Program-made: the position numbers and the translations under genes | Part shown: in pieces, positions 5,840 through 35,476 of the stretch | How the letters are laid out: every line of letters starts with the position of its first letter | How positions within the stretch are numbered: position 1 is the first letter of the stretch | From: Candidatus Argoarchaeum ethanivorans | GTDB taxonomy: Archaea > Halobacteriota > Methanosarcinia > Methanosarcinales > EX4572-44 | NCBI GenBank assembly: GCA_905067555.1 | Contig: CAJHIS010000007.1 | Span: forward strand, 1 to 37,424 | Reading direction: 5' to 3' | DNA length: 37,424 nt | Notes under the pieces: model-generated | The model's database searches: none | The model's input: the letters and a program-made list of their open reading frames with translations, nothing else | What the model was told of the DNA's origin: nothing

Positions 5840-5928
5840 TTTTGTCCTCGATGTGACTTATTATTATCTTTTCTACTATCTGTTTCTTACATGTTGCTTA
5901 ACCATATTATTCTATCCCTATTTTTTTA

Positions 5929-5947
5929 ACGTATAGGAAAGTATAAA
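5929..5947 (-). promoter_or_regulatory. Promoter-like module upstream of the GTPase operon, shared with the pyrE upstream repeat
   Basis: The 19-nt plus-strand sequence ACGTATAGGAAAGTATAAA is also present at 34354-34372 upstream of pyrE. Read on the minus strand it contains TTTATAC, a good archaeal TATA box, about 100 nt before the GTPase start. In both places a CTCTTGC-containing spacer and a palindrome lie on the distal side, so promoter and hairpin may have been copied together. Confidence 0.5.
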
Positions 5948-12808: not shown

Positions 12809-12836
12809 CTGCACAACTTCGTTGTGCAGAAATAAC
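12809..12836. repeat. Hairpin repeat at the left edge of the restriction island
   Basis: Perfect palindrome 12809-12829 (arm CTGCACAAC, loop TTC) followed by AAATAAC. The same 28-nt unit with one mismatch occurs in the same orientation at 23983-24010 on the far side of the hsd operon, and the exact 21-nt palindrome again at 24071-24091. From 12837 to 13008 there is no gene. Confidence 0.85.
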
Positions 12837-13008
12837 GGTTCTGAGCGTATTTGAAGTATGAGACGACAGTGAGGATTTGGGCGGAGTGCCGAAGGGTGTG
12901 TAGCCAGATACCTGCCTGTTATGCGACGTGCCGACAGTTTTACGCACCATTCTTTTGACCCCACAAATATTCATCTTTTTCAAATAAAAGTGCCTGTATT
13001 ATAATAAA

Positions 13009-16000
13009 TCACCCCTTCTTTGTAATTTCATCAGCAATCAATTCCGCCTGTTTAAGCACTGTTTCTGTTGCGAGTGCTTGCATATCTGGCGGATAACCAT
13101 ATTGTCTTAAAGTCCGTTTTACAATTACTTTTAATTTTGCCCTGACGCTTTCTTTTATCGTCCAGTCTATTGATGCGTTTTGTTTCACCTTCTCAAATAA
13201 AACAACAGCCAATTCTCGTAGTTTTTCTTTTTGCATCAATTCTCTTGCACTGTCATTATCTGCAATTGCCGTATAAAAAGCGTATTCAAATTCTGACAAA
13301 CCCATATCCTGTGGCTCTTTGTCCATCCTCTTTATCTCTTTACTGAGTGTAATCAGTTCTTCAATAACTTCAGCCGCAGTAATAACCTTGTTGTGATATT
13401 TCTTGATGGAATCTTCCAGCATTTCCATTAACGATCTGCTTTGAACCAGGTTCTTTTTCACCCTGGCTTTTATTTCATCGTTGAGCAACTTTTTAAGAAC
13501 TTCCAGAGCAATGTTTTTATGCTCCATGTTCTGGACTTCTAAAAGAAATTCTTCTGATAGAATGGAAATATCCGGTTTCTTAATACCTGCGGCATCGAAA
13601 ACATCTATCACCTGTTCAGTTATGAGGGCTTGATCTATAACTTGCCTGATTGCGGTTTCAATTTCTTCGTCGGTTTTGCCTGTTCCAGTGCTGTCAAACT
13701 TTACAAGTCTGGCTTTTATCGCCTGATAAAACGAGACTTCGTCCTTTACATCCATTGCCTGCTCATGCGGAATGGCTATCGAGAACGCTCTTGATAATGC
13801 GGTCACTTCATCAATATACCGTTTCTTCCCGTTTTCAAGGCCAAGTATATGCTCCTCCGCAGCGAGTATTATCGATAGCTTCGTTGAGGTATCCGCAGCA
13901 AAATAATGTTCATAAGGAAATCCATGAAACATCTGGGAAACAATTTCAAGTTTCTCAAGCATCAGTTGAACCGCCTGTTCCTGAAGAACCGCAGGATCGC
14001 CTCTTCCTCCGCTGTCAGAATAGAATGATAGGGCTTCTTTAAGATCGGAGGCGATTCCGAGATAATCAACCACTAAGCCACCAGGCTTGTCTTTATAAAC
14101 CCTGTTCACCCGTGCAATTGCTTGCATAAGCGTATGACCTTTCATGGGCTTATCAATATACATCGTGTGCAGCGAAGGAACATCAAAACCGGTTAACCAC
14201 ATATCCCGCACAATCACCAATTTTAATTCGTCTTCTGTGTCCCTCATTCGTTCTGCCAGGGCTCGTCTTTGTTCTTTGGTGGTATGGTGTTTTGAGATCT
14301 TTGCCCCCTCTGAAGATGCTGATGTCATTACCACCTTGATAACGCCCTTTTTAAGATCGTCGTTGTGCCACTCTGGTTTGATTTTAATAATTTCGTCATA
14401 CAGGTTGGCTGCTATCCGTCTTGACATTGCCACGATCATTCCCTTGCCCTCAAACACTTCCTGGCGCTGCTCAAAATGGGTTACAATGTCTTGTACAACC
14501 TGTCTTATCCGGTCTTCGCTGCCAATCAAAGCTTCAAGCTGTGTCCATTTCGCTTTAGCTTTTTGTGTCTCAGCAAGGTCTTCTTTTTCTAATTCCTCGT
14601 CCAGTTCCGCTACCAGTTTTTTGCCTTCCTTGCTGAGAGCGATTTTTGCCAATCTGCTTTCATAATAGATTTTTACGGTTGCGCCGTCCTCGACCGCCTG
14701 GGAGATGTCGTAAACATCGACATAATTGCCAAAAACAGCGGGCGTGTTCACATCCGTTTTTTCAATGGGCGTACCGGTGAAGCCAAGATAAGTCGCATTG
14801 GGCAGGGCGTCGCGCGTATATTTCGCAAAGCCGTAAACTATCTTTTTTCCGATTATGTTTCCCTGCTCATCTTTTGCATCGATGATTTTTGCCTTGAATC
14901 CGTACTGCGTCCGGTGGGCTTCATCGGCAATTACAATGATGTTTCGCCTGTCTGATAGTTTTGGGTAAACATTCCCTTCTTCAGGCTGGAACTTCTGGAT
15001 GGTGGTAAATACAACTCCACCAGATGCGACGTTCAGCAGTTCTTTCAAGTGTTCTCTGCTTTCAGCCTGGACAGGATCCTGCCTGAGAAGTTGTTTTGAC
15101 GCGGCAAAGGTATCAAACAGCTGGTCGTCCAGATCGTTTCTGTCGGTGATTACCAGTATGGTCGGATTGTCCAGGGCGAGAACGATTTTACCGGTAAAAA
15201 ACACCATTGATAACGATTTACCGCTTCCCTGCGTATGCCAGACAACACCGCCTTTCCGGTCCCCTGTGGGTTGAGAATCCACCCCAACAAGACCATAGCT
15301 TGCCGGTGATTCCATCACCATAAACTTATCTGTCGTTTTAGTTTCAGAATATCCCGATGCCCGCAGGGTCGATTCCACGGCTCGATTGACCGCATAGTAT
15401 TGATGATATGCGGCCAATTTCTTCACGGTTGCAATCGTTGTTATGCCTGTTTCTTTATCTTCTTTTTTCGACTTGTCAAATACAATGAAATGGCGTATAA
15501 TATCCAGCAAGGTTCGTTTGTTGAGCATCCCTTTGATCAGCGTTTCCAGTTGTCCTATCCGGGGAGATGCTACCGTCTTGCCATCAGTTGATTTCCACGC
15601 CATGAACCGACTGAAACCTGCGGAAAGGGAACCAGCCTTTGCCTCAAGACCGTCGGAGATTACCGTGAAGCCATTGTAAGTGAAAAGACCCGGTATTGCC
15701 TGTTTATAGGTCTGTAACTGCCTGAATGCAGATCTTGCGGTTGCGTTCTCATCGGCAGGATTCTTAAGTTCAATAACAATCATGGGCAAGCCGTTTACAA
15801 AGAGGATTATATCAAGGCGCTTGTTCACCTCGTTTTCTATGACCGTGAATTGATTGGCTACAAGAAAATCATTATTCTCTGGATTTTTAAAATCTATCAG
15901 CCAGACCAGGTCGCCCCTGTCTGCCCCGTCTTTGTGGTAGCTTACTTTTATGCCTTCTGTCAGCATTCGGTGAAACGCTTCATTGTTGGCGATTAGTTCA

Positions 16001-16245
16001 GGCGAATTGAGGCGCTGTATCTGCTTGATGGCGTCTTCTCTCACATCCTCCGGAATACTGGAATTGATCCTTCCAACTGCTTTTTTCAGACGCTCTAACA
16101 ACAGGACATCTTCAAAGGATGTTCTTTCCGGCGTTTCGCTGTCGGGCGCAATGTCGGGTGCGTAAACGTATTGGTAGCCCTGTTTTTCGAGGAGTCCGAT
16201 TGCGAATTGTTCTATTTGCGACTCGGTGATCTTATCTGTCGTCAT
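13009..16245 (-). CDS. hsdR: Type I restriction enzyme, R subunit
   Basis: A 1078-residue HsdR, the motor and nuclease subunit. The PD-(D/E)xK nuclease near the N-terminus shows RLDIILFVNGLP followed by IVIELKNP around residue 155. Walker A is HTQGSGKS near 338, the DEAH box is VIADEAHRTQYG near 440, and helicase motif VI is MQAIARVNRVYK. A coiled, charged C-terminal region of about 250 residues should contact the M2S complex. All expected motifs are intact, so it is probably active. It is the last gene of the hsd operon; its ATG overlaps the end of the short rhuM-like gene by 14 nt. Confidence 0.93.
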   Translation of the reverse strand: MTTDKITESQIEQFAIGLLEKQGYQYVYAPDIAPDSETPERTSFEDVLLLERLKKAVGRINSSIPEDVREDAIKQIQRLNSPELIANNEAFHRMLTEGIKVSYHKDGADRGDLVWLIDFKNPENNDFLVANQFTVIENEVNKRLDIILFVNGLPMIVIELKNPADENATARSAFRQLQTYKQAIPGLFTYNGFTVISDGLEAKAGSLSAGFSRFMAWKSTDGKTVASPRIGQLETLIKGMLNKRTLLDIIRHFIVFDKSKKEDKETGITTIATVKKLAAYHQYYAVNRAVESTLRASGYSETKTTDKFMVMESPASYGLVGVDSQPTGDRKGGVVWHTQGSGKSLSMVFFTGKIVLALDNPTILVITDRNDLDDQLFDTFAASKQLLRQDPVQAESREHLKELLNVASGGVVFTTIQKFQPEEGNVYPKLSDRRNIIVIADEAHRTQYGFKAKIIDAKDEQGNIIGKKIVYGFAKYTRDALPNATYLGFTGTPIEKTDVNTPAVFGNYVDVYDISQAVEDGATVKIYYESRLAKIALSKEGKKLVAELDEELEKEDLAETQKAKAKWTQLEALIGSEDRIRQVVQDIVTHFEQRQEVFEGKGMIVAMSRRIAANLYDEIIKIKPEWHNDDLKKGVIKVVMTSASSEGAKISKHHTTKEQRRALAERMRDTEDELKLVIVRDMWLTGFDVPSLHTMYIDKPMKGHTLMQAIARVNRVYKDKPGGLVVDYLGIASDLKEALSFYSDSGGRGDPAVLQEQAVQLMLEKLEIVSQMFHGFPYEHYFAADTSTKLSIILAAEEHILGLENGKKRYIDEVTALSRAFSIAIPHEQAMDVKDEVSFYQAIKARLVKFDSTGTGKTDEEIETAIRQVIDQALITEQVIDVFDAAGIKKPDISILSEEFLLEVQNMEHKNIALEVLKKLLNDEIKARVKKNLVQSRSLMEMLEDSIKKYHNKVITAAEVIEELITLSKEIKRMDKEPQDMGLSEFEYAFYTAIADNDSARELMQKEKLRELAVVLFEKVKQNASIDWTIKESVRAKLKVIVKRTLRQYGYPPDMQALATETVLKQAELIADEITKKG

Positions 16246-16573
16246 CTTTTCGCCCCTTGATGCGCTTTATCTCTTTGTCAAAATCAGAGATGTAATTTTC
16301 ATCCTGAATTTTCTTGAATGTTTCATATTCTTTGCCATCTTCGGCAGTATGTGCAAAACTTGCACATACTGAATCTTCCTGCAACTCGTTATCAGAAAAG
16401 ATGTTCTTCAGGTGCCTGGTAACAACACTGCGGTCTACATCGAACAGTTCCGCAATCCGCTTTTGCGGCAACCAGATGTTTTCGTTGGCGTAGAGCACTT
16501 CAATATTGATTTTTCCATCCGATGTTTGATAAACAGTGATTTGATTGTCGGGAAGTTTTTTATTTGTAATCAT
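16232..16573 (-). pseudogene. RhuM-like protein, internally deleted
   Basis: A 113-residue ORF with the RhuM N-terminus (about 80 residues: NENIWLPQKRIAELFDVDRSVVTRHLKNIF, a helix-turn-helix-like segment) joined directly to the RhuM C-terminal end (SDFDKEIKRIKGR). The roughly 230 residues normally between them are missing while the frame is kept. Its ATG shares one base with the stop of the intact rhuM gene upstream, and its end overlaps hsdR by 14 nt. It may be a simple deletion scar or a retained small DNA-binding protein. Confidence 0.7.
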
Positions 16574-17601
16574 TATACATTTCCTTCGCTGTTATCTTCC
16601 AATTTTTTAATCATTTTATCAAAATCTGATTCGAATAACCGGTCTTGCACTATGCGGTACTTCCCAAATTCACTTTCAGCAAATGCTTTTGCTATCTTTT
16701 GTGCTACTTTGCCGGAATTATCCAATAGTTCGCGATTATTGAATTGTAAAAAGACATTCAACTTTTTCGACCAATCTTCCATTGTCATTGGAATATTTTG
16801 TTCTGCCTGGTCTTCTGCATAATCGAGGTACATTGTAGTGATACGGTCCAATGCTTTTATTTCCTTTTCTGAGAGATAATTTTTGGCAATAGATACATCT
16901 GGTTTTATGATTTTTTCGTGAGGCGCATTTTTCCATGTAGTTAAACCCATGTGTTCTTTGTTACTGTTTGCCCGCGTCATTATCAGTTCAGCGGCAGTGT
17001 TCCTATGGATGGCGAAATGTAATTTGTTCTGGACTGTGGCGAAGAATGTTTTTGTTATTTCACTCTCAACATTATAATCAACAGCAGTGGCATATATATC
17101 GGTTATTTTCTGATAAAAGCGACGCTCACTTGCCCGGATTTCCCGAATTTCAGCAAGCAAATGGTCGAAATAGTCCTTATTGAAAAAAGAACCGTTTTTT
17201 AACCGTTCATTATCAAGCACATAACCGCGAATAGCAAAATCTCGCAAGATATTAATTGCCCATTGACGGAACTGGGTTGCACGTTCTGAATTGACCCGAA
17301 ATCCAACGGCAATAATGACATCGAGATTGTAGAATTTCGTAGTATATTCTTTTCCATCTTCGGCAGTATGTCGGAAATCCCGACATACTGAAATCTCTTT
17401 TAATTCGCCTGTTTCGAAGATGTTTTGTAAATGCTCTGTTATGGTACTGCGACCCTTTTCAAACAAAACACTCATCAGCTTTTGAGTGAGCCATACCGTT
17501 TCATCTTCAATGCGAACCTCTATAGTATTTTTATTGTTCTGTTTCGTGAAAATCAGAAATTCCGCAGTGCTGTTTCGTATTTGTAGTTTTGTATCAGTCA
17601 T
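16573..17601 (-). CDS. RhuM-family protein
   Basis: A full-length RhuM-like protein of 342 residues. An N-terminal wHTH-like part (ETVWLTQKLMSVLFEKGRSTITEHLQNIF) is followed by the conserved VIIAVGFRVNSERATQFRQWAINILRDF core, then EIRASERRFYQKITDIYATAVDY and a C-terminal LDYAEDQAE/FDKMIKKLED portion. RhuM was named as a putative Salmonella virulence protein, but the family commonly sits inside Type I restriction operons, as here, and may act as a regulator or accessory. It is the only complete one of three paralogues in a row. The start is set by the ATG at 17601. Confidence 0.85.
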   Translation of the reverse strand: MTDTKLQIRNSTAEFLIFTKQNNKNTIEVRIEDETVWLTQKLMSVLFEKGRSTITEHLQNIFETGELKEISVCRDFRHTAEDGKEYTTKFYNLDVIIAVGFRVNSERATQFRQWAINILRDFAIRGYVLDNERLKNGSFFNKDYFDHLLAEIREIRASERRFYQKITDIYATAVDYNVESEITKTFFATVQNKLHFAIHRNTAAELIMTRANSNKEHMGLTTWKNAPHEKIIKPDVSIAKNYLSEKEIKALDRITTMYLDYAEDQAEQNIPMTMEDWSKKLNVFLQFNNRELLDNSGKVAQKIAKAFAESEFGKYRIVQDRLFESDFDKMIKKLEDNSEGNV

Positions 17602-18441
17602 ATTTCCTCCTTATGCGATTTATCTCGTTGTCAAAATCTGCCGAATCGTAAATAATTTCTGCTGCGGGTTTTCCGAGACTTTTTGTTATATTCTGAAATT
17701 GGGTTTTGGAAAAACCACAGAGAGCACAGAGGACACAGAGAAAAATAACAACTCTCTGTGCCCTCCGTGCCCTCCGTGGTTAATCTTCTTTGTCATACTC
17801 ACATCCACCCGGAAGAAATTAAAAAGCCACGTTTTTCCGGTGATTGCCCAATAGAGTTTGTTCTGAACCGTTGCGAAAAAATCCTTTGTTGCTGGCGCGT
17901 TTTTGTAATAATCAGCGGCAAGCGCGTAGATGTCGGTGATCTTCTGGTAAAACCGCCGCTCACTTGCCCGGATTTCCCTGATTCGTTCAAGGAGTTCCTC
18001 GAAATAGTCCTTGCCGAAAAGCTGGTTGCCCTGCTTGAGCCGTTCGTCGTCCATGACAACTCCCTTGATGATGTATTCTTTCAGGGTTCTTGTAGCCCAG
18101 ATGCGGAATTGGGTAGCCTGGTAGGAGTTGACGCGGTAGCCGACCGAAATGATGGCGTCGAGGTTATAGAATTCCATTTTCCGGCGGACATTCCTACCTC
18201 CTTCATTTTGAACTGTTTCCAAAATGGAAATAGTTGACTTTTTCCTCAACTCCCCTGTTTTATAGATGTTTGCCAGATGTTTGCTGATGGCAGGTACATT
18301 TACTCCAAACAGTCCGGATATGCCTTTCTGGGTGAGCCAGACGGTTTCATCCTTCAGAAATACTTCTACATTCACGTCTCCATCACCTGAGGTGTAGAGG
18401 ATGAAATCTGATTGTTGTTTTACAATGTCGCTTTTGTTCAT
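17590..18441 (-). pseudogene. RhuM paralogue disrupted by an inverted-repeat element
   Basis: The first ~205 codons are a good RhuM (DNA-binding N-terminus, AIISVGYRVNSYQATQFRIWATRTLKEY, then RRFYQKITDIYALAADYYKN and FFATVQNKLYWAITGKT). The frame then enters a 69-bp inverted-repeat element (17713-17781), translated as the low-complexity NHGGHGGHRE type, and stops at 17686. Beyond the element another frame resumes with NITKSLGKPAAEIIY and then SADFDNEINRIRR, ending at the start of the next rhuM. The ~120 residues that should lie between are absent. The gene therefore has both an insertion and an internal deletion. Confidence 0.78.
17713..17781. repeat. MITE-like inverted repeat inside rhuM
   Basis: Arms of 28 nt (17713-17740 and 17754-17781) rich in CACAGAG/CTCTGTG triplets, about 82% complementary, with a 13-nt AT-rich centre. 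Repeats of this ACCACAGAG...CTCCGTGGT type are, from general knowledge, scattered through many bacterial and archaeal genomes and produce spurious NHGGHGGHRE peptides. The insertion is clearly secondary because it interrupts a recognisable gene. Confidence 0.8.
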
Positions 18442-18470
18442 GTGCCCGCCTCTTGTTGCTTCAATTTCAC

Positions 18471-18770
18471 CTAGACTTCACCATTCATCAGCTTCGGCAA
18501 CAGCGTATCCCGCAGTTTTTCAAGGGTGCGGATTTGTTTGTTGTTTATTTCCTGATTATCTTTGGTATCACTGGATTTTGCCTTATTTTGAGGTATTCTG
18601 CCAACGGCTGATTGCAGGCGTTTCGATAATAACACATCTTTAAAGAATCGTCTGTCCGACGTTTCGTTGTCAGGAGCGATGAAAGGAGCGTAGACCTCGT
18701 AATAAACAGATTTCTCTAATAATTCAATGGTTAATTTCTCGATTCTGGATTCGGTTATTTTTGGACTCAT
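18471..18770 (-). pseudogene. Chimeric remnant: HsdR N-terminus fused to HsdS C-terminus
   Basis: A 99-residue ORF. Residues 1 to about 60 (KITESRIEKLTIELLEKS..., APDNETSDRRFFKDVLL) match the start of the HsdR at 16245. The last ~25 residues (IRTLEKLRDTLLPKLMNGEV) match the C-terminus of the HsdS at 19618. Roughly 1000 HsdR residues and the target-recognition parts of HsdS are missing, yet the join is open. This implies that a second hsdR-hsdS arrangement once existed and collapsed by deletion. The ORF starts 3 nt after the HEPN-like gene with a good GGAGG, so it could still be translated. Confidence 0.75.
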
Positions 18771-18773
18771 AAT

Positions 18774-19604
18774 TTATTCCTCCGCCTTACTTAAATCTGC
18801 AATTGCTGCCTGGAGCACTTTCCAACTGATTTGTGCTGTATGCTCATCTGGTGTAAACTTTGAAACCATTTGTTGATATGGATGCATATAATTCCTAAAA
18901 TCTCGCATGGAATGACTATGTTTTTTTATATCCAAACCAAGAAAACCAATTTCATGAGCAACATTGATGAGATCATTTAATGTCCATTCATGAAATCTTT
19001 TAATTTTTCCTTCTTTATTTTTAGGTGCGGATCTCGAAGTGTTAAATTTTTGCGGATATTTAGTAGTAAAGTTAAGCAATAACCCTTCAAGCACACTTCC
19101 ACACAAAAAGATAACAGCTAATGATGCATTGTTTTTTAAACAAATTTGAATTTCGGTAATTCTTTGCTCAATAATGTCAGAAAGTCCCGAGGTTAAGTTT
19201 AATTGTGATAAATTAATTTCAAAATCTCTTTTTAAAAAGTCTTCTTCCTTTTTAACGTCGTCATCATATTGTTTCCCAAGAAGTCTATAAACAATTTTTA
19301 AACCTTTTTTATAGATATTATGATCTACAGTTTTGCTTTCCCTCTTTTGATCATATTTCCATATTTCTAATAAGTCCTCCAAAACTTTTCCTACAATTTC
19401 ATCTGATTCTAATTCCCAAAACGCTCTAAGCCTTTTTGCTTTTGAATCACCGTTAAATGCGTATTTATCATCGGATATGTTAATACCAACAACATCTCTA
19501 AACAATTCGGCAAAGGTAGCATTAGTGTAACCTAATACATAGCCTGAACTCATACCAAATATATCTTCAAAATACTTTTTCTCTACAGGTTTCAGATTAG
19601 CCAT
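18774..19604 (-). CDS. HEPN-like protein in the restriction operon, possible abortive-infection factor
   Basis: A 276-residue soluble protein of no named family that I recognise with certainty. The C-terminal third has a helix SLAVIFLCGSVLEGLLL, then KRFHEWTLNDLINVAHEIGFL, then MRDFRNYMHPYQQ. The RDFRNYMH segment at about residues 235-242 fits the R-x4-6-H signature of HEPN domains, many of which are RNases in defence and toxin systems. The N-terminal half (residues 1-130) is charged and lacks motifs. It lies between hsdS and hsdR fragments in the same operon, as many anti-phage accessory genes do. A GTG immediately precedes the ATG at 19604. The function is inferred. Confidence 0.6.
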   Translation of the reverse strand: MANLKPVEKKYFEDIFGMSSGYVLGYTNATFAELFRDVVGINISDDKYAFNGDSKAKRLRAFWELESDEIVGKVLEDLLEIWKYDQKRESKTVDHNIYKKGLKIVYRLLGKQYDDDVKKEEDFLKRDFEINLSQLNLTSGLSDIIEQRITEIQICLKNNASLAVIFLCGSVLEGLLLNFTTKYPQKFNTSRSAPKNKEGKIKRFHEWTLNDLINVAHEIGFLGLDIKKHSHSMRDFRNYMHPYQQMVSKFTPDEHTAQISWKVLQAAIADLSKAEE

Positions 19605-19617
19605 CACATAACCCCTT

Positions 19618-20721
19618 TTAGTAGCTCATCCTGACTTCCCTGCTCATCAATTTAGGCAAGAGCGTATCACGGAGTTTTTCAAGGGTGCGGATTTGTTTTA
19701 TATTGTCTCTCAATTTATTTATAAATGTTGAAGTAAACTGATTGAACTTGTTTAGTTTCCCTAAAGGTGCAATTTTAATTTCTGTAGATAACGCAATATC
19801 CCGATTTAGGCCAGGAACTGCTGAGTCTGAATTCATTTCTTCAAAATTGAGTGTCTTTAGTAAGAAGTATTCATACAACAATCCTGCGGATTCAACTTTT
19901 GATTTGATATAATACGTTGTATCAATAGGGAAAAAGTTGTCCCACAGATAAATAACTTTGCCAAGCGTACCTTTTCTGCCGATAACGATCCCAGGACCTT
20001 CGACCAAAAATTCAGAGTGATAACCGACAACGCCGCTTGAACCAATTACTGGACAACCTGTGTCTGTTCTTATTTCTTTTTTTAACCCTTTACCATAAAT
20101 AAGCTCAATAACATCACCCAACATGCCTTCCTCCCACCCCTCATCCGCCTCCTCCACAAACCACTGCCTGAACAGTGTTTCCGCCATGGCTTCGAGGGTC
20201 TTGTTCTGGCGGTGGAGCAGGTCTATCTTGTCGTCGAGGCTGGAGAGCACCGAGGCAATGGCGCGCTGTTCGGGGAGCGGGGGGAAAAGAAATTCGTGCT
20301 GTTTTACAACATCTGTTTGTACTCTTTGTCTTCCAGAACTTCCAGTCATTGAAGCAATCGCCAGATCTCTAAACTCTGGAGAACAGGCGAGATAAAAAAG
20401 ATAATTCTTATCGCTGATACCTTTTATTTCACGCAGAACTATAAACTCCGTTGAACCAAAACCAACTTCATCATCTTCAAGCAAATCGACAAAAGATGTT
20501 TTGCCATTCTCAAGGCTTGGGGTGATTCTTGCTACAAGAGTATCTCCGTTCCTGAACTTAACGCCGCCTTTGTATTCTTCTTTGGTATAAGTTGAGATTT
20601 TCTTCGTGAACGGTTGTAATAACTCCATGGCTACCTTCTTAGCTTTAGTGCCTTTAGCTAAGCGTTCGGCAGGATTAATTACTGCAATCTCCTGTAATTT
20701 TGTTTCCTTCCACTCACTCAT
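19618..20721 (-). CDS. hsdS: Type I restriction enzyme, specificity (S) subunit
   Basis: A 367-residue HsdS that sets the DNA target of the complex. Two target-recognition domains are visible: TRD1 (about residues 1-150, ending in the FPPLPEQRAIASVLSSLD conserved region) and TRD2 (about 195-345, beginning WEEGMLGDVIELIYGKG). Each is followed by the coiled spacer (KIDLLHRQNKTLEAMAETLF and IKQIRTLEKLRDTLLPKLM). Length is slightly below the usual 400 but both halves are complete. The start overlaps the preceding small ORF by 8 nt, implying coupled translation. Confidence 0.9.
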   Translation of the reverse strand: MSEWKETKLQEIAVINPAERLAKGTKAKKVAMELLQPFTKKISTYTKEEYKGGVKFRNGDTLVARITPSLENGKTSFVDLLEDDEVGFGSTEFIVLREIKGISDKNYLFYLACSPEFRDLAIASMTGSSGRQRVQTDVVKQHEFLFPPLPEQRAIASVLSSLDDKIDLLHRQNKTLEAMAETLFRQWFVEEADEGWEEGMLGDVIELIYGKGLKKEIRTDTGCPVIGSSGVVGYHSEFLVEGPGIVIGRKGTLGKVIYLWDNFFPIDTTYYIKSKVESAGLLYEYFLLKTLNFEEMNSDSAVPGLNRDIALSTEIKIAPLGKLNKFNQFTSTFINKLRDNIKQIRTLEKLRDTLLPKLMSREVRMSY

Positions 20722-20965
20722 CCCGAACCACCCTCCTAAATACTACCACGTCAAACGTTCCTTCATCTCCATCCCCCGCAACCTGAAATTCGCCATCATA
20801 ATACGCATTTTCAGTTTCATGCTTCACCTTAATAACTCCCGGTGGATAAAAGTTCTCAAAACCATTTTCATACCCGCTGGTCAATACCGGCAGATCCTGC
20901 GGCAGGGATTTCAAAATTTCAACCAACTGACCAACTGTGAAATGGAACACCTCTTTTTTACTCAT
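20714..20965 (-). CDS. Small hypothetical protein in the hsd operon
   Basis: An 83-residue acidic protein beginning MSKKEVFHFTVGQLVEILKSLPQDLPVL, followed by YENGFENFYPPGVI and a beta-rich C-terminal part. The opening resembles short proteins found next to restriction or plasmid genes, but I cannot name the family. Its stop overlaps the hsdS start by 8 nt and it follows the ORF6N gene by 15 nt, so it is embedded in the operon. It could be a regulator of hsdS or an antirestriction-type protein; both are guesses. Confidence 0.6.
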   Translation of the reverse strand: MSKKEVFHFTVGQLVEILKSLPQDLPVLTSGYENGFENFYPPGVIKVKHETENAYYDGEFQVAGDGDEGTFDVVVFRRVVRDE

Positions 20966-20980
20966 TGCGATTCCTCCCGC

Positions 20981-21880
20981 TCACTCATCCCCCAGCCCCT
21001 TCAATCTCGTGATCATCTCAAACGCCCCGATATTCATCTTCGAGAACGCAAACCATTTCTTTCCAATATCTTTTAAAGAAGCTCCAAAATGATAGACAGT
21101 GGTGTTGTCAATAATTATAAACCGGTCATGGGAGTCTTTGAACTCTTTTATCTCGATGGACGGATACTGTTCATTAAATTTCTTTATATCCAATGCCAGT
21201 TGTTTTGATATTGTTTTTGTGAGACTCGTAACTTTTACACCTTTATTTCTTTTTGTGAGATGCGTCAAAACAGTATCATCAATATAATTACTAATTATAA
21301 ATATTGTATTATGTGCTTTTCTGATAAGATAAGAAACAAATTGATACGCATCAAAAATCTGGCCATCAAAAAAGATACCTTGTTTTGGTTTTATGCTTCG
21401 TTTTTCAATGGCATTGAAAATCTGTTCAAATTTCTGATCAGTTTCTGCTTTATGCTCTATCTGCCGTATTTCCACAGCATCCAGGCGCTGAAAAACCTCT
21501 GCATTTGAAGCGATAAAACGGCGCATTGCAACGAAAGCTCGCATAATCTGAATATTAACTTCAATCGCTCTTTCACTGGTAAGTACCCCAGAAATAGTCG
21601 CAACACCCTGTTCTATAAAAACAAATGGAAGTGAACCGCCCAGATGCTGCTTCGAATGTATCGCATTTTGCGATACCATAAAATTAACCTCTTCTTCTGT
21701 GAGCTGAAACATGAAATCTGAGGGGAAACGTTTGATATTTCTTTTCACCTGTTCTCTTAGTCTGATTGGTTTTACGCCATAAAAAATGGCTAAATCCCTA
21801 TCCAGCATTACCTGAACATCACGGATGGTATATATTCTGCTCTGGATATCATCAATTATCACCAATCCATTTTTACTCAT
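20981..21880 (-). CDS. ORF6N-domain protein with a PLD-like C-terminus
   Basis: A 299-residue protein. Residues ~10-120 form an ORF6N/KilA-N-like DNA-binding domain ([49 protein letters not shown]), known from phage and mobile-element proteins. A short linker is followed from about residue 165 by a domain with [30 protein letters not shown] and [19 protein letters not shown], a pattern seen in phospholipase-D-like or nuclease-like C-termini of such proteins. It overlaps the hsdM end by 4 nt (ATGA). It could be an accessory defence or regulatory protein; substrate and activity are unknown. Confidence 0.75.
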
Positions 21881-23421
21881 ACCAGCTTCACCTTCTTGAG
21901 GTTTTTAGCAATCAGCAAATTAAGCTTCTCTTCCTCTTTCAACTGCTCCTCAAACTCCGCTTTCAGGCTGCTAAATCGCTCATTAAAATCGAAATCATCT
22001 TCTTCATCAGGCAATCCGACATATCGCCCCGGTGTCAGCACGTAATCAAGTTCCCGCACCCGTTCAATAGAAGCAGAATTGCAGAACCCTTTTATATCTT
22101 CATAATTCCTGTCAGGATTGCGCCAATTGTGGTAGGTCTCTGCAACCTTCTGTATGTCTTCAGGTGAGAACTCACGGGTCCTGCGGTTGATCAGATGCCC
22201 CGTGTTCCGGGCGTCAATGAACAGTATTTCGTCTGTCCTGTTCCTGTATTTGCCATTAGCTTTGTTCCTGCTTAAAAACCACAGGCTGGCGGGTATCTGT
22301 GTGTTCAGGAAAAGTTTTGGCGGAAGGTTCACGATGCAATCAACCAGTCTGGCTTCCACAAGCCCCTTTCTGATATCGCCTTCGCCGGATGATTTGGAGG
22401 TCAGAGATCCTTTAGCAAGAACAAAACCTGTCTGTCCGCTTGGGCTGAGGTGGTAGAGAAAATGCTGTATCCAGGCGTAGTTGGCATTTCCTGTTGGTGG
22501 TACGCCGTATTTCCATCTGCCGTCCTTGCGTAAGAGATCACCGCTCCAGTCGCTGTCGTTGAAGGGAGGATTGGCGATAACATAATCAGCTTTTAGGTCT
22601 TTGTGAGTATCATTGAGGAAGGAGCCTTCATTGTTCCATTTCACCTGTGAGCTGTCGATACTGCGAATAGCAAGGTTCATTTTACACAATCGCCAGGTGG
22701 TCTGGTTGCTCTCCTGACCATAAATGGAAATATCGTTTACTTTTCCCTGATGATCTTCTACAAACTTTTCCGACTGAACAAACATACCTCCGGAGCCGCA
22801 ACAAGGGTCAAAGACTCTGCCGTTGTAGGGTTCCAGCATTTCTACAAGCAACTGAACAACGCTTCGGGGGGTGTAGAACTGCCCTCCTTTCTTTCCTTCC
22901 GCAAGCGCGAACTCGCCAAGAAAATACTCGAAAACATGGCCCAGAATATCGGCGCTTCTAACTTTGGCATCGCCAAAGGCGATGTTGCCCACCAGATCGA
23001 TCAAACCGCCAAGACTTGTCGGGTCGAGGTTGCCTCTTGCATAGACCTTTGGTAAAACCCCCTTGAGCAAGGGATTCTCTTTTTCGATTGCGTCCATCGC
23101 GATATCAACGTCTTTACCAATCTCTGGCCGTTTGGCTCGTGCTTGTAAATATGACCAGCGAGCAATCGCAGGAACAAAAAAAACATTCTCGGCTTTGTAT
23201 TCGTCCCTGTCTTCAGGGTCAGCACCAGCGTAATCCCCCTCTCCTTTTTGCAGTTTTTGATATAATCCCTCAAAGGCATCTGAGATATATTTCAGGAAAA
23301 TCAGACCCAGGACTATATGTTTGTACTCGGCAGCGTCAATATTCTTTCTGAGTTTATCCGCCGCTTTCCAGAGTTGCTTCTCAAGAGGTTCTTCTTGAGT
23401 TTTATTGTCGTTCTTTGCCAT
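21877..23421 (-). CDS. hsdM: Type I restriction enzyme, modification (M) subunit
   Basis: A 514-residue adenine-N6 methyltransferase. The N-terminal helical domain ([34 protein letters not shown]) is typical of HsdM. The SAM-binding motif [11 protein letters not shown] is near residue 205 and the catalytic NPPF ([11 protein letters not shown]) near 282. The C-terminus runs through the HsdM domain to the [14 protein letters not shown] end. All motifs are intact. As the first gene of the minus-strand operon it should be expressed together with the genes down to hsdR. Its ATG follows an AT-rich leader at 23422-23460. Confidence 0.93.
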
Positions 23422-23564
23422 TTTACCAATCCTTCCCGATTATTGTATTAACGCTCATTCAGAGATGATGTACGTTTCTAACAGGCACTTTTATATCATT
23501 CGTTATCGCAGGGTCAATTAATATAGTTTTCATGTGTAAAACCCGTTTTCAGTATTGGCATGTT

Positions 23565-23661
23565 GCATAACATCGTATATCCGAACTTGGTTCGTATATC
23601 CTCACGATTTGGTGATATATCCGAACAGAGTTTGCATATACATCCTTCTGGTCGAACATCT
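23565..23661 (-). repeat. Integrase 3' flanking repeat with paired hairpins, copy 1
   Basis: This ~97-bp segment directly follows the integrase remnant stop and recurs almost unchanged at 28023-28119. It contains two hairpins: 23578-23598 (arms TATCCGAAC and GTTCGTATA, loop TTG) and 23617-23639 (arms ATATCCGAAC and GTTTGCATAT, loop AGA), each with one or two mismatches. It may be part of a recombination (att) site. Confidence 0.65.
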
Positions 23662-23936
23662 TCAATCACCATCCTCTCCTCCTTTTATCTGTAAGCTATC
23701 CAGCGGACTTTTAATCTTACCCATATCATTGTTACTTACATGCGTATATATCTCTGTCGTCTTACTACTTTTATGCCCCAGTAATCCCTGAATATACCTC
23801 AAATCCACACCGCTTTCCAGCGGATGTATGGCAAAGCCGTGCCTCAACGAATGAGTCGTGACATTCTTCCTGATATTCGCTCTTTTACAGGCATTTGCGA
23901 ATATCTTTCCAACTGTCCGGGTGTTATATGTTTTTC
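23662..23936 (-). pseudogene. Tyrosine recombinase (XerC/D-like) C-terminal fragment, copy 1
   Basis: About 90 codons of the catalytic C-terminus. The frame opens at about 23936 and reads [18 protein letters not shown], then the H-x-x-R motif [12 protein letters not shown], the [16 protein letters not shown] block containing the catalytic His and the nucleophile Tyr, and ends [12 protein letters not shown]. The N-terminal arm-binding and core domains and the first catalytic Arg are absent. No start codon precedes the open part. It lies at the right end of the restriction island and about 280 bp from tRNA-Leu, so it is probably what is left of the enzyme that integrated the island. Confidence 0.85.
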
Positions 23937-23982
23937 CTCATTATGGCTCGGAAATAACCAGTAACCATTGATTGCGGAGCAC

Positions 23983-24186
23983 TGCATAACTTCGTTGTGC
24001 AGAAATAACTATTAACTTGAGTAGAAACAACTATTAACTTGAGTAGAGATAACTCTTGATTGCGAAGCACTGCACAACTTCGTTGTGCAGAAAATAACTA
24101 TCAACTGCACAATTCTTGATTGCGCTAGTAATCAAGTGCAGAAAACAACGGTTAACGGCCAACTCTTGATTACGAAGTAATCAAGT
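23983..24186. repeat. Hairpin repeat cluster beside tRNA-Leu
   Basis: Four palindromes: 23983-24003 (arm CTGCATAAC, loop TTC, one mismatch), 24071-24091 (arm CTGCACAAC, loop TTC, perfect), 24116-24137 (arm CTTGATTGC, loop GCTA, one mismatch) and 24166-24186 (arm CTTGATTAC, loop GAA, perfect). A tandem 22-bp repeat based on TATTAACTTGAGTAGA lies at 24009-24052. The last hairpin ends 31 nt before the tRNA. The first repeats the left-edge unit of the restriction island. Confidence 0.8.
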
Positions 24187-28022: not shown

Positions 28023-28119
28023 GTATAACATCGTATATCCAAACTTGGTTCGTATATCCTCACGATTTGGCGATATATCCGAACAGAGTTCGCATATACA
28101 TCCTTCTGGTCGAACGTTT
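28023..28119 (-). repeat. Integrase 3' flanking repeat with paired hairpins, copy 2
   Basis: It closely matches 23565-23661, including the two hairpins (28036-28056 with loop TTG; the second with arms ATATCCGAAC and GTTCGCATAT, loop AGA, starting about 28075). Both copies start with a (G)TATAACATCG or GCATAACATCG edge. Confidence 0.65.
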
Positions 28120-28262
28120 TCAATCATCATCCTTTCCTCCTTTTATCTGTAAGCTATCCAGCGGACTTTTTATCTTCCCTATAGTTTTATTGTTTACATG
28201 GGCATATATCTCTGTTGTTTTTTAACTCTTGTGCCCTAACATCTCCTGGATATGCTGCCCCA
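28120..28262 (-). pseudogene. Tyrosine recombinase C-terminal fragment, copy 2
   Basis: The last ~47 codons of a recombinase close to copy 1: GQHIQEMLGHKS, then a TAA stop (28222-28224) where copy 1 reads S, then KTTEIYAHVNN and [16 protein letters not shown]. Without the stop the block would include the catalytic His and Tyr. The catalytic Arg region is missing because the homology ends near 28262. It is a decayed second copy. Confidence 0.75.
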
Positions 28263-28328: not shown

Positions 28329-31055
28329 TTAATAGTTGATGCGGCTTTCACCATTTATTTTTTCAACATGTATGATGTGGTCGCAGTGTTCGTTGAAGGT
28401 GTCATCATGGCTTATGATGAAAAGCTGTTTGAAGCCGTGTATATTTCGTATTTGTTCTGAGAGGTTTTCTCTTCGCTGCACATCAAGGTTCTGGGTTGGC
28501 TCATCAAGGAATACCACATCGCTTTTGGAGATTACTTTGATAAGTGATAGTCGCGTTGCAAGTGCTGCGCTCATTTGCTCTCCTCCGCTAAGCTGCGAAA
28601 AATTGCGTTCTTCTCCCCTCTCTATAACCGATATATTGTACTCTTCGTTCCAGTGAAGTTCCAGTGAATAGTCGTTCATGATTTCACAGTAGGCGTTTGT
28701 AGCTTCAGATGCGATTTCGTTTATCAGTTCAAGGACTGCGAGCTGACCCGAACTGTTGAGAAGGTCTCTGATAAAGGTCACGTAAGAATAGAACTCTTGT
28801 TCTTGTTTCAGTCTTTGTTCGTTTCTTGTTAGTTCGTTAAGTTTTGATTCCATTCTCAGGAGGCTCTGCTGGTTTGTGTTAGACTGCTTGATTTTTTCAT
28901 TGCAGGTGCTTTTCCGGGCACTCAGCTTCTTCCCGAGTTCATCCAGTTCTCCTGTCACCTGTTGAAATTCTGTTTCACTGAAACTTGAGCGGAGAGCTTG
29001 ATTTTGTGTTTGCTCTTTTTTAACCTCTACTTCTTCTTTTTCGAGTGCGTTTAGCATACTGTCACGCTCTTCTGTAAGCTCGACTTTTCTTTCTGCGATT
29101 GGTTTGTTTCGTAGATAGGTCTCGTAAGCGCTTTTTAGTTTTTTTGTTTTATTTTCTATTACTGTTATTATTGCATTCAATCCTGCATATTTTTTTGAGA
29201 AAATAGTATTGTGTTCTTTTAACTCCTGCTCTTTCTCGGTTATTTGCTGCTGTGTATCTGGTAGCGTTCCAAGTTCTCTTTGTTTTGCATCTATCAGTGT
29301 TTCAATGCTTTTTAGCTGTGTTTTAGCATCGCCAAGTGCTTCAAGCTGTGTTTTTAGTTTGGTGATGATTTGTTCCACTTCTTCCTGTTCGCTTTTTTCT
29401 CCTGATAATGCTTTGATATATTGCTGGAATTTTGTTGATAGTTCACCAAGTTTCAATGTGTTTTCTTTGATTTTTTCAGGTACCTGTGTCAGTTTGTCAA
29501 TTTCTTCCTGTGCACCTGTTAATAGGGCATCCTTTTGTGTTATTTGCCCAACCGGATCGTGAAGTGTGTTAAGCTCTTCCTGAAACGTTGATAATTCTAT
29601 TTTAATGGCATTTAGTATTGTTTGCCGCTTATTGATCTCTTCTGTAAAATAAGTGTGAAAATCTGTAACCGCCTCACATTTAACACCTGGTAGTATTGGG
29701 CAGAGGTTTTTTTCCCCTGCTTGTTTTGATTTTTTTTTAAGCCCACTTGCTTCAGAGTTTGTGATTGCAATGGAACGTGATATCTTTTCAACCTCTTTTT
29801 TCAGGTGTTCCTGCTTTTGCGATAGCGGCAAAAGAAGGCTTTTTTCTTTTCCAAGTGTGTTTATTTTGCTCTTTAATTCACAAAATCGTCTCTCTTCTTT
29901 TTGTAGAGTGGTTTTTTCAAAAATGAGATGTTGCAGTGGTTCTTTTAATTCCCGCTGTACCAGATCGATTTCTTGCTGCAGTGTTTGTTGTTTTTGCACT
30001 CCTGGCAGTAGCTGCTCCTTTTCTGTTTTCAGTCGCGAGACTTCCTGAAGAAGCAATTGTCCTCTTTTCTGTTTGTCCTGAAGGATTGCAAACTCGTTTT
30101 TAAGTGAGAGTATTTTCTGTTCATCCTTGTTTCGATCTTCTCTTCGAATATAAAGGTGTTTTAAAGTGTTTTCACTCTCTTCGTATTCATCTTTTTTATC
30201 AGAAAGCTCAAAGACGATTTTTTCTGCTGCATCTGCGCTTTTAATGTCTTTATCTATTCTCACCAGCTGTTTTTTTGTCGCAGCAATAGATATTTCAAGT
30301 CTGTGGATACTGTCTTCGAGATCCTTAATGCTTTTTTGCTTCTTATCAAGATTCTCTTTTCTTTTTTTACGTTGTTCAAGATTGCTCTCTATCTGCTTCA
30401 TTTCTTTTGAAAGCTGGTTTATCTGTTTTTGAAGGTCTGCATGCTCTTTTTTTAGTTGTTTGTAGTCTCTGGTTTCTGTTTGAAGTACAAGCTTTTCTTT
30501 TTCAAGGTCTGTAATCCCCTCTTTTACAGCATTTATTGCAGGCAGCAGATTCGTGTAAGCTTTTCTGTACTCATCAACTCCAAGCACTTCATCGAATACC
30601 ATTTTTCTTGCTGAAGGCGTCTGTGCAAAGGCAGTTGTAAACGTGCCCTGGGAAACCCCGATCGTGTTTTCAAAAATGGATCGGAGTTCCTTTGAACCAG
30701 TTACATGAGGGAATATATGGTCAATGAGCCAATCATACACATCCTTTTTGCCGTTAATAGTTCCAAGTGGTGTTGCAAGTCGTATATCACTTCCTCCAAC
30801 CTTTCGTGTGAGAATGTAGCTGATTTCATCGTCTGCGACAAAAGCAATCTCAACACTACCGGTTTTTGCACCTCTCCGAAGAAAATCGCGTTCAGGGTAA
30901 GGTAGCGCATCAAAAAGCGCATAACCGACTGCTTCGAGAATGGTGGTTTTGCCGTGACCATTATCGCCAGCGATACCATTGATACCTGCTTTGAACTCTA
31001 TTGCAGCATCCCTATACGATTTAATGTTTTTAAGTCGAAGCCGTGTGAGAATCAC
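28329..31055 (-). CDS. rad50: DNA double-strand break repair ATPase Rad50
   Basis: A 908-residue Rad50 that with Mre11 processes DNA ends. Walker A is GDNGHGKTTIL near residue 35; the signature motif LSGGEQMSAALATRL and Walker B VVFLDEPT lie near the C-terminus. Two long coiled-coil arms surround a zinc hook near residue 452. The hook reads CPILPGVKC, i.e. two Cys separated by seven residues rather than the usual CxxC. Its ATG overlaps the mre11 stop by 4 nt (ATGA), so translation is coupled. The C-terminal H-loop region (IISHDD) is present, and length is normal. Confidence 0.92.
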   Translation of the reverse strand: MILTRLRLKNIKSYRDAAIEFKAGINGIAGDNGHGKTTILEAVGYALFDALPYPERDFLRRGAKTGSVEIAFVADDEISYILTRKVGGSDIRLATPLGTINGKKDVYDWLIDHIFPHVTGSKELRSIFENTIGVSQGTFTTAFAQTPSARKMVFDEVLGVDEYRKAYTNLLPAINAVKEGITDLEKEKLVLQTETRDYKQLKKEHADLQKQINQLSKEMKQIESNLEQRKKRKENLDKKQKSIKDLEDSIHRLEISIAATKKQLVRIDKDIKSADAAEKIVFELSDKKDEYEESENTLKHLYIRREDRNKDEQKILSLKNEFAILQDKQKRGQLLLQEVSRLKTEKEQLLPGVQKQQTLQQEIDLVQRELKEPLQHLIFEKTTLQKEERRFCELKSKINTLGKEKSLLLPLSQKQEHLKKEVEKISRSIAITNSEASGLKKKSKQAGEKNLCPILPGVKCEAVTDFHTYFTEEINKRQTILNAIKIELSTFQEELNTLHDPVGQITQKDALLTGAQEEIDKLTQVPEKIKENTLKLGELSTKFQQYIKALSGEKSEQEEVEQIITKLKTQLEALGDAKTQLKSIETLIDAKQRELGTLPDTQQQITEKEQELKEHNTIFSKKYAGLNAIITVIENKTKKLKSAYETYLRNKPIAERKVELTEERDSMLNALEKEEVEVKKEQTQNQALRSSFSETEFQQVTGELDELGKKLSARKSTCNEKIKQSNTNQQSLLRMESKLNELTRNEQRLKQEQEFYSYVTFIRDLLNSSGQLAVLELINEIASEATNAYCEIMNDYSLELHWNEEYNISVIERGEERNFSQLSGGEQMSAALATRLSLIKVISKSDVVFLDEPTQNLDVQRRENLSEQIRNIHGFKQLFIISHDDTFNEHCDHIIHVEKINGESRINY

Positions 31056-32431
31056 GTAACATCGCCTCTCATAAAAGGAAGCATACCAGCATTGTTTTCT
31101 TCTCGAGCTTGCTTTTTATGCAGTTGTATCTGGTCAAAGCTCTGTTTTAACAATCGGATAATCTCTTTTTCATTAATTCGCTGCAAAGCAAGTTTTTTTG
31201 CCTCGACAGTGTCACTTACAACCTGCTTCACACATAATTTGTAGCGTCCATCCTGAAGTATTTGTTCTCTTAATATCTTTGTTTCTATCTGTTCCCTGCT
31301 CATGCCCACAATATCGCTTTCGTGAAGAGTATAGCAATCATTGGTCTGTTTGATGTGAACATCAGCATAGAGGCACCCAAATCTCTTTTTGACCATCTCT
31401 CTTAGTTCGGGAAGAGGGACATCTTTTTTAGGAAAATTGAGATTGCCCCACAACGTCAGTTCAACAATCGGGGAGAGCTTGGAATCAACAGGCGTCTCAC
31501 TTTCTACTATCGACTGGACAAGCAAAGATATTTCGCTTGGCGTCTTTACACTGCTAATATTACCTGAAAGCCGCTTGAATTGGCGTGTTGGAATTGTTAC
31601 AAGATCTGCACCGCTATCGGTTACATGGTAAAATCCTTTTTTAAGTCCATATTCATTAAGCGAAAAAAGTTCCAGGCTCCCACCATTGTACACCCAGTGA
31701 TCATACTCGTACTGATTGTGATAATGCCCGAGTGCAAGATAATCCACACATTCGCGAAGGGGAAGTAATGCACTATATGGTATCTCACCTGCAACAACAC
31801 TTCGAGCCTGTTCTTCCATACCAAAGTGCATGGTGAGCACAGTAAACCGATCGAGGCGCCTGCACACTCCGTGTGCAGAATCAACTTCTGAGTTGGCGTG
31901 AGGGCGAGCCTGTGATGTACACGGAGAGATAGACTGATCCATGCCCTGGTTGATTTTCTGTATCTCTCTATCAATGAGCGGGATACTCTGCATAGTAGAT
32001 GCACCCAGATAACCTACACCAAACACCCGACAGTTGCCAACATCCACGTAATCCAACTTTAAACCACCATCCCATGTTGATTTCAGCAACCGAAGCATCC
32101 CCTGTGATTCCAGAATCTGGAGCCAACTGTTTCGATCTCTCTGGTATGCAAGGTCATGGTTGCCCTCAATCGCGATCACAGGAATGGGGGCACGTCCAAG
32201 TGATTTACACTCGTCCTGTAACTGCGAGAGCACGTTATATGCCTGGAGATATGTAGGTGCATTAATATTGCGCTTTTCAAACAGGTCCCCCGCAATCAAA
32301 ATAAAATCCACATTATGCTCCAATCCATACGTAATGAAAGCTTTGAACGTTGTAGCAAAATCCACAAACCGCTCATGCAAACCATACTGTACATACCCAA
32401 GATGAAAATCACTGCCGTGAATAAAATTCAT
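31052..32431 (-). CDS. mre11: DNA double-strand break repair nuclease Mre11
   Basis: A 459-residue phosphodiesterase from the chosen start. Motifs: GSDFHLG (DxH), IAGDLFE, EGNHD, MHFG and GHYHN, all metal-binding positions present. The C-terminal part forms the Rad50-binding region. An in-frame codon at 32455 would add eight hydrophobic residues; MNFIHGSDFH is the normal beginning. Between IDREIQKINQG and RFTVLTMHFG lies an insert of roughly 28 residues (about 165-192), absent from archaeal homologues as I recall them, which coincides with hairpin DNA at 31860-31895. The insert keeps the frame and falls in a probable surface loop before the MHF motif, so the enzyme may still work. Confidence 0.9.
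   Translation of the reverse strand: MNFIHGSDFHLGYVQYGLHERFVDFATTFKAFITYGLEHNVDFILIAGDLFEKRNINAPTYLQAYNVLSQLQDECKSLGRAPIPVIAIEGNHDLAYQRDRNSWLQILESQGMLRLLKSTWDGGLKLDYVDVGNCRVFGVGYLGASTMQSIPLIDREIQKINQGMDQSISPCTSQARPHANSEVDSAHGVCRRLDRFTVLTMHFGMEEQARSVVAGEIPYSALLPLRECVDYLALGHYHNQYEYDHWVYNGGSLELFSLNEYGLKKGFYHVTDSGADLVTIPTRQFKRLSGNISSVKTPSEISLLVQSIVESETPVDSKLSPIVELTLWGNLNFPKKDVPLPELREMVKKRFGCLYADVHIKQTNDCYTLHESDIVGMSREQIETKILREQILQDGRYKLCVKQVVSDTVEAKKLALQRINEKEIIRLLKQSFDQIQLHKKQAREENNAGMLPFMRGDVT
31860..31895. repeat. Hairpin pair inserted in-frame in mre11
   Basis: A perfect palindrome at 31860-31878 (arm CTGCACAC, loop TCC) and a smaller one at 31882-31895 (arms CAACT/AGTTG). The first has the same 8-3-8 geometry and a similar stem to the intergenic repeat family. 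It encodes a serine/histidine/cysteine-rich stretch that matches nothing expected in Mre11. Confidence 0.7.
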
Positions 32432-32491
32432 TCCAATCAGGAGATACAAATACAAGGAAAGTGTTAAAAACGTATCGATAAAAGTTCTGGT

Positions 32492-34345: not shown

Positions 34346-34496
34346 GTTTCTTGACGTATAGGAAAGTATAAATACACTTTCTTCTCTTGCTACTTATTCT
34401 CTGCACAATGAAGTTGTGCAGTTTCTTGACGTATAGGAAAATATAAATACACTTTCTTCTCTTGCTACTTATTCTCTGCACAATGAAGTTGTGCAG
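34346..34496. repeat. Tandem 75-bp repeat with hairpin and TATA box between pyrK and pyrE
   Basis: Two copies (34346-34420 and 34421-34495) differ at very few positions. Each holds the ACGTATAGGAAA(G/A)TATAAAT segment, whose minus strand has a TTTATA box, a CTTCTCTTGC spacer and a palindrome (34401-34421 and 34476-34496; arm CTGCACAAT, loop GAA, one mismatch). The proximal TATA at 34366-34373 lies about 50 nt before the pyrE start. The same promoter-plus-hairpin arrangement is upstream of the GTPase operon. Confidence 0.85.
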
Positions 34497-34509: not shown

Positions 34510-35310
34510 TCATTCACAGCTTCTCCATCTTACATAATCTGAAACAGGAACTTTCTTACCTGACTTGATCCTTGCAAAATGATTGAACTCCGGATTGCCT
34601 TCTACATCTTTTGATTCAAATACCGGCCCTTCCTTGCAGACAACCTTGTCCCCACACATACACTGCCCGCACACACCAAACCCACATTTCATGTATCTCT
34701 CCATGCTGATAAAGCATTTTTTTCGGTGCTTCTTGCAGATCTCAATCACCCTTGACATCATGATTTCAGGTCCGCAGCAGAAGACCTGGGACACTTTATC
34801 AGGAGCAGATATTTTCTCTTCTAAAATCTCTGTGACAAATCCCTTCTTTCCAAAAGTCCCATCGTCTGTAGTGAAATGAGCATCCTTGAAACGGTTCCTG
34901 AAAAGGAGCATATCTTTTGATCTTGCACCAATAATACTATTTGATTTCTTTACTTTTTCTATCAATGGAGCAAGCGAAGACACACCACACCCGCCCCCGA
35001 TTACAATAGTACTGGAATCTGGCTCAGGAAACCCGATTCCATAAGGACCACGTATGCCAATTATGCCTGCTTTCTTCGTGCTAGCAAGTTTCTTCGTGAA
35101 CTTGCCCTTAACTTCAAATGTTATGCCTATTCGGTCTTTCTCAAGATAGCTTACGCCAAATGGCTTCTCATCAACGCGGGGAATCCACACCATCACAAAC
35201 TGACCTGGAACAAAATCATCAAGAGTATTTTTGACAAAAATAGTGAAAAGGTCTTTTGCTTCCTTTTCAATCTCAAGTATCTCCAGTGACCTTGGGTAAT
35301 CATCCCTCAT
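34510..35310 (-). CDS. pyrK: Dihydroorotate dehydrogenase electron-transfer subunit PyrK
   Basis: A 266-residue iron-sulfur flavoprotein of the PyrK family that passes electrons from dihydroorotate dehydrogenase PyrD to NAD or another acceptor. A ferredoxin-reductase-like FAD/NAD domain (PGQFVMVWIPR, VIGGGCGVSSLAPL) precedes the [2Fe-2S] cluster site MKCGFGVCGQC...C near the C-terminus. The ATG at 35310 is used; an in-frame GTG three codons upstream lies in repeat DNA. The ancestral junction overlapped the pyrD end by about 14 nt and has since been triplicated. Confidence 0.9.
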   Translation of the reverse strand: MRDDYPRSLEILEIEKEAKDLFTIFVKNTLDDFVPGQFVMVWIPRVDEKPFGVSYLEKDRIGITFEVKGKFTKKLASTKKAGIIGIRGPYGIGFPEPDSSTIVIGGGCGVSSLAPLIEKVKKSNSIIGARSKDMLLFRNRFKDAHFTTDDGTFGKKGFVTEILEEKISAPDKVSQVFCCGPEIMMSRVIEICKKHRKKCFISMERYMKCGFGVCGQCMCGDKVVCKEGPVFESKDVEGNPEFNHFARIKSGKKVPVSDYVRWRSCE

Positions 35311-35476
35311 GTGCAACACCTATCATTTCCTTTTGGTTTATTTGTTCTACACAACGAAGTTGTGTAGGTAATCATCCCTCATCTGCAACACCTATCATTT
35401 CCTTTTAGTTTATTTGTTCTACACAACGAAGTTGTGTAGGTAATCATCCCTCATGTGCAACACCAATTATTTCTTT
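35295..35476. repeat. 72-bp tandem repeats duplicating the pyrD/pyrK junction
   Basis: Units start at 35295, 35367 and 35439 (the third partial). Each begins with the junction sequence containing the pyrD stop and pyrK start (minus strand ATGAGGGATGATTACC); the first two continue into a spacer and a perfect palindrome (35347-35367 and 35419-35439; arm CTACACAAC, loop GAA). The two upstream copies of the pyrK start run into TAG inside the palindrome after 11 codons. The third keeps the true gene. Confidence 0.88.

Follow-up and report, generated by a model that had tools for sequence, protein, structure and literature searches.

Mre11 is a core archaeal repair protein, yet in one Argoarchaeum species its gene carries a segment, partly palindromic, that related genes lack. 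We asked whether this segment is a copy of a repeat that entered the gene as DNA, and from which family of repeats it came. The DNA analysed here, which we call the window, is 37,424 nucleotides long and constitutes contig C7 of an 84-contig MAG (G000; 1.22 Mb, 57% complete). We compared it with 40 relatives' genomes in all, among them three of the same genus (G001-G003) and two of the same family (G004 and G005). The Mre11 with the insert has 461 amino acids, and its relatives are found in Ca. Argoarchaeum ethanivorans and other GoM-Arc1 ethane oxidisers; a profile comparison matches it to Pyrococcus furiosus Mre11 (1ii7) at 5.8e-34. The features at the locus are as follows.

28329-31055: rad50, the partner gene, downstream of mre11
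31052-32455, minus strand: mre11, Metallophos domain (Pfam PF00149, 1.6e-9), reading frame open across the insert
31853-31939, minus strand: in-frame insert of 87 bp or 29 codons (residues 167-195), placed by pairwise and multiple alignment against insert-free congeners
31860-31878, no strand: 19-nt palindrome of class P2, CTGCACAC-TCC-GTGTGCAG, a perfect 8-3-8
31879-31887, plus strand: linker AATCAACTT, akin to the family linker AAAYAAYT that comes after P2; database matches reach query position 34-37
31882-31895, no strand: minor second hairpin, CAACT-TCTG-AGTTG, at chance level
31905-31939, plus strand: possible copy, now decayed, of the target flank (31803-31852), sharing CGAGCCTGT and TARACYGATC at about 77% identity with gaps

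The Mre11 proteins of G001-G003 align as two segments that adjoin in the subject and leave out query residues ~168-194 between them. The insert is missing at the same site in these three genomes, in G004 and G005, and in seven further Methanosarcinales Mre11 proteins. Its absence from all twelve relatives is read, by parsimony, as a gain in the lineage of the window. The initial annotation had proposed alignment with close relatives as a check on its extra segment of about 28 residues; the alignment bears out the segment and sets its size at 29 codons. GATC stands at each end of the insert, so its placement can slide by 4 bp. As had also been claimed, the insert does not shift the frame, and it adds no stop; one peptide that would span it is INQGMDQSISPCTSQAR.

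Hairpin repeats are a well-known source of assembly errors, and a MAG this incomplete and fragmented, the sole genome of its species compared, might contain a repeat-mediated chimaera in which assembly or binning brought foreign sequence into mre11. However, the flanks on both sides of the insert are collinear with three congeners over kilobases, and we estimate that a kept frame with no stop would arise by chance in about 8% of cases (1/3 for length, ~1/4 for 29 stop-free codons). We regard such an artefact as quite improbable.

Two further observations concern the window at large. A segment of about 11 kb that contains type I restriction-modification genes (12836-24045) is missing from the collinear region of G003, and a direct repeat of 229 nt (86% identical) stands at 23567-23795 and 28025-28253, with similar stretches in G002 and G003.

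The Argoarchaeum palindrome family

The palindrome in the insert had been described as a perfect 8-3-8 related to intergenic palindromes, and both statements stand: it is a P2 with 0 mismatches (16/16 in the stem). Matches to the palindrome region, often with the A-rich linker, number 54, 25 and 14 in G001, G002 and G003 and 10 in G000, counts that rest on a loose E-value limit. Other members of the family are P1 (CTGCACAAC-TTC-GTTGTGCAG), P3 (CTYGATTNC..GNAATCRAG) and P4 (CTGCAAAGC..GCTTTGCAG); the hairpins are 19-22 nt long and frequently occur in the order P1-AA-P2-AAACAATT-P3. Across 377 kb there were 158 family hairpins, as against 5 in a reversed control. P1 palindromes number 93, 211, 121 and 151 in the four Argoarchaeum genomes, versus 0-2 in each of 36 other genomes of the order, which include the nearest two relatives from the same family, G004 and G005 (reversed-pattern controls gave 0-1). 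Because P1 is plentiful in Argoarchaeum and this scarce in the 36 relatives, we consider the palindrome family a genus-level expansion. We found no paper on such repeats in Argoarchaeum in the literature searched.

Copies inside genes are exceptional. Among 193 hairpin clusters in 1.09 Mb, mre11 holds the only clear insertion within a conserved protein, and since 81-84% of this DNA is coding, the family is strongly excluded from genes. Matches within ORFs at one further locus (L155) and in G001 were rejected as additional cases, as they comprised N-runs, ORFs that were short or spurious, and a palindrome present by chance in an ordinary protein.

Flanking direct repeats of 15-44 bp accompany ~24 of the 167 scorable clusters in three genomes, at a score cut-off of 14 that falls between the 95th (10.6) and 99th (16.2) percentiles of random positions; 10 of 75 clusters in G000 exceed the 99th percentile. 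With so many clusters lacking one, a flanking duplication is not a requirement for belonging to the family. The flanking repeat usually abuts the hairpin on one side and is separated from it by a linker of ~14 nt on the other. Single P2 copies in G002 and G003 carry duplications of 30-65 bp (L102, L108), and long target duplications also flank a further single-P2 copy (L107). Many duplicated copies sit on tightly packed gene junctions, including scpA-scpB, tldD-tldE, and pyrD with its downstream neighbour, where the duplication preserves both stop codon and start codon. The tldD-tldE junction (L064, 9944-10098 on contig C5 of G000) is empty in G001 and holds P1-P2-P3 in G000, while in G002 and G003 another hairpin occupies this same duplicated junction; element content is therefore swapped in place. 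At 35295-35476 of the window, two P1-type palindromes each precede a duplicate, 38 bp long, of the junction between the pyrD stop and the start of the next gene. This double insertion is present in G000 and G002 and missing in the nearer G003, whose state suggests a precise loss, or else is independent.

We infer that the family spreads at the DNA level and leaves long duplications of its targets, which decay with time. A more far-reaching proposal, which we offer as a doubtful possibility, is that these repeats would be among the smallest known mobile elements: hairpins of 19-22 nt that produce target duplications of ~15-65 bp, that can be exchanged for others within a duplication already in place, and that are tolerated mostly as stop and start codons that overlap are restored by the duplication, with the mre11 copy a rare intragenic survivor that may alter break repair.

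As to what might move these repeats, Y1_Tnp occurs in each of the four Argoarchaeum genomes and in the palindrome-free G004 as well, and the presence of Y1 transposases is not correlated with that of palindromes. A reverse transcriptase was rejected, RVT_1 being found in one of the four Argoarchaeum genomes, all of them incomplete MAGs. A broken Y1 (IS200-like) transposase was seen on contig C8 of G000 (17003-17305), ~220 bp from a P1 palindrome at 17526.

Other repeat arrangements were observed in the window. A transposase-like ORF that is truncated (28-648) has a P4-P2-P3 array (585-656) at its 3' end, where G003 has a short unrelated stretch. A tandem duplication of 75 bp (99%, 34346-34496), common to G003, has a unit that ends in the palindrome CTGCACAATGAAGTTGTGCAG. 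The stretch GCAAGAGAA..GCGTTTATAnTTTCCTATACGTTAAAAAA recurs, often beside palindromes, at 5922-5947 and 34347-34372 and at three loci elsewhere (L096, L103, L046), and has the look of a repeated promoter-like sequence or of a second repeat.

Composition and origin of the insert

We think it probable that a decayed family copy, a P2 hairpin with its A-rich linker, entered mre11 of this Argoarchaeum species in frame by a single insertion, once the species had separated from the sequenced congeners. Recognisable repeat makes up about 35 of the 87 bp and the possible duplicate another ~35 bp, while ~17 bp fit neither. The GATC at either end is a certain duplicate; the longer one is marginally supported, as an end-anchored score of the likeness between insert and flank was reached by 9 of 1000 shuffles, and other nulls were weaker (33/1000, 79/2000). 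A decayed target duplication in the last 35 bp of the insert is suggestive only.

Several features count against the insertion of a repeat. Roughly half of the 87 bp is not clearly akin to anything. The divergence of the supposed target duplication is ~23%, and with a dS of 0.14 to the nearest relative this is much more than the age of the insertion permits under neutrality. Seven bases lie between the palindrome and the GATC end, whereas most other copies with a duplication have the target directly adjoining one side of the hairpin.

An origin by growth of the loop itself, through slippage and local tandem duplication, the palindrome being a chance acquisition or a product of template switching, would account for the likeness of part of the insert to its own left flank. 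It would also fit the DNA beside the loop (31936-32100), which differs by 8-23% per bin in all species, as compared with ~5% elsewhere. A match of 16/16 to the P2 stem within 87 bp, joined by a matching linker, is nevertheless unexpected by chance, and we hold growth of this kind to be unlikely. Since the raised divergence occurs between all pairs of species, we regard the stretch beside the insert as a variable one, and for the same reason local recombination from a congener was rejected as the source of the insert.

Other features of the insert were unremarkable. The small second hairpin of the initial annotation does exist, but its significance does not hold up, being at chance level in an insert that folds no better than its shuffles (z = -0.40). 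No known RNA family was found in the region with Rfam. A phage or viral origin was rejected, as the insert has no match in phage records and exact P1 none in viral contigs.

The protein that carries the insert

In an AlphaFold model of the insert-bearing Mre11 (shallow alignment, mean pLDDT 68), pLDDT drops below 50 exactly over residues 167-195. These residues lie between a helix (145-163) and the strand (198-204) that bears the histidine of the MHFG motif, and the site aligns to the stretch ahead of LHQG in 1ii7. The model thus agrees with the initial placement of the insert in a probable loop just ahead of MHFG, albeit with low-confidence geometry, and with moderate confidence we predict a disordered surface loop that is probably exposed. 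Because the copy would have landed in such a loop, Mre11 would tolerate the 29-residue extension, whose effect was probably small and near-neutral.

The gene remains open and constrained, with an ordinary dN/dS: 0.12-0.25 in congener pairs that include the insert-bearing mre11 and 0.16-0.20 in pairs without it. The protein is likely to be still functional.

By analogy with bacterial repair genes tagged by REPs, for which such effects have been speculated, the insert might have been an adaptive change that altered nuclease activity or the mutation rate. It immediately precedes the strand that holds the histidine of MHFG, no clear intragenic copy besides that in mre11 came to light, and bacterial intragenic REPs are often in replication or repair genes that are often the sole tagged genes of their species (PMC3733652). 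Yet the insert is predicted to be disordered, the rest of mre11 evolves at the usual rate, and a single case makes no trend; we consider adaptation very improbable.

Comparison with known palindromic repeats

Coding palindromic repeats, including some in repair genes and in archaea, have already been described, and similar events are known in Rickettsia and other microbes. What the present locus adds is a polarised case in which repetitive DNA became part of a core archaeal repair protein, with congeners as natural controls. It also draws attention to a family of very small palindromic repeats, spread through the genus, whose target duplications are unusually long.

The initial annotation had likened the insert to the palindromic elements of Rickettsia (RPEs), which sit in frame in protein genes, where they are frequent, measure 100-150 bp and have terminal inverted repeats (Ogata et al. 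2000, as summarised in PMC2229807 and PMC3767692). The resemblance holds in kind, a palindromic repeat standing in frame in a conserved gene at a predicted exposed site; membership is not supported. At 87 bp, the mre11 insert has a single internal palindrome and no terminal inverted repeat, and the Argoarchaeum hairpins are nearly always intergenic, with 1 of 193 clusters clearly inside a gene. The CGTC tag at one end that is reported for RPEs (PMC3733652) is missing from the flank composition of P1 and P2 copies, and no sequence relation was shown between the two families. On the features tested, the insert is RPE-like in kind but belongs neither to the RPEs nor to the tagged REPs. Fusions of palindromic repeats to archaeal proteins are on record (Suyama et al. 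2005, as cited in PMC2229807); they come from a different archaeal lineage.

The YPAL/RU-2 elements of Yersinia are likewise small and palindromic, with target duplications of variable length and with empty and filled sites (PMC2229807). They are bacterial, 168 bp long, and make duplications of 3-26 bp, whereas those in Argoarchaeum span 15-65 bp.

REPs and REPINs with RAYT transposases, and CGTC-tagged REPs, are hairpins of 20-40 bp in 100-200 copies, clustered and mostly intergenic (PMC3733652, PMC3116915). Assignment to either class by end tags was rejected, as neither the GTAG tetranucleotide at the hairpin foot nor CGTC stands beside the Argoarchaeum hairpins. Unlike REPs, the Argoarchaeum copies have long target duplications, and they are not correlated with the Y1 transposases present. 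The two nevertheless share small hairpins, copy numbers of 100-200, clustering and a place mostly between genes. The rare gene copy is alike as well: intragenic REPs of bacteria, often in a replication or repair gene and often in the species' sole tagged gene, encode 20-30 residues (PMC3733652), and the one in mre11 encodes 29 in a repair gene. This match makes the claim that intragenic repeats favour repair genes testable in archaea.
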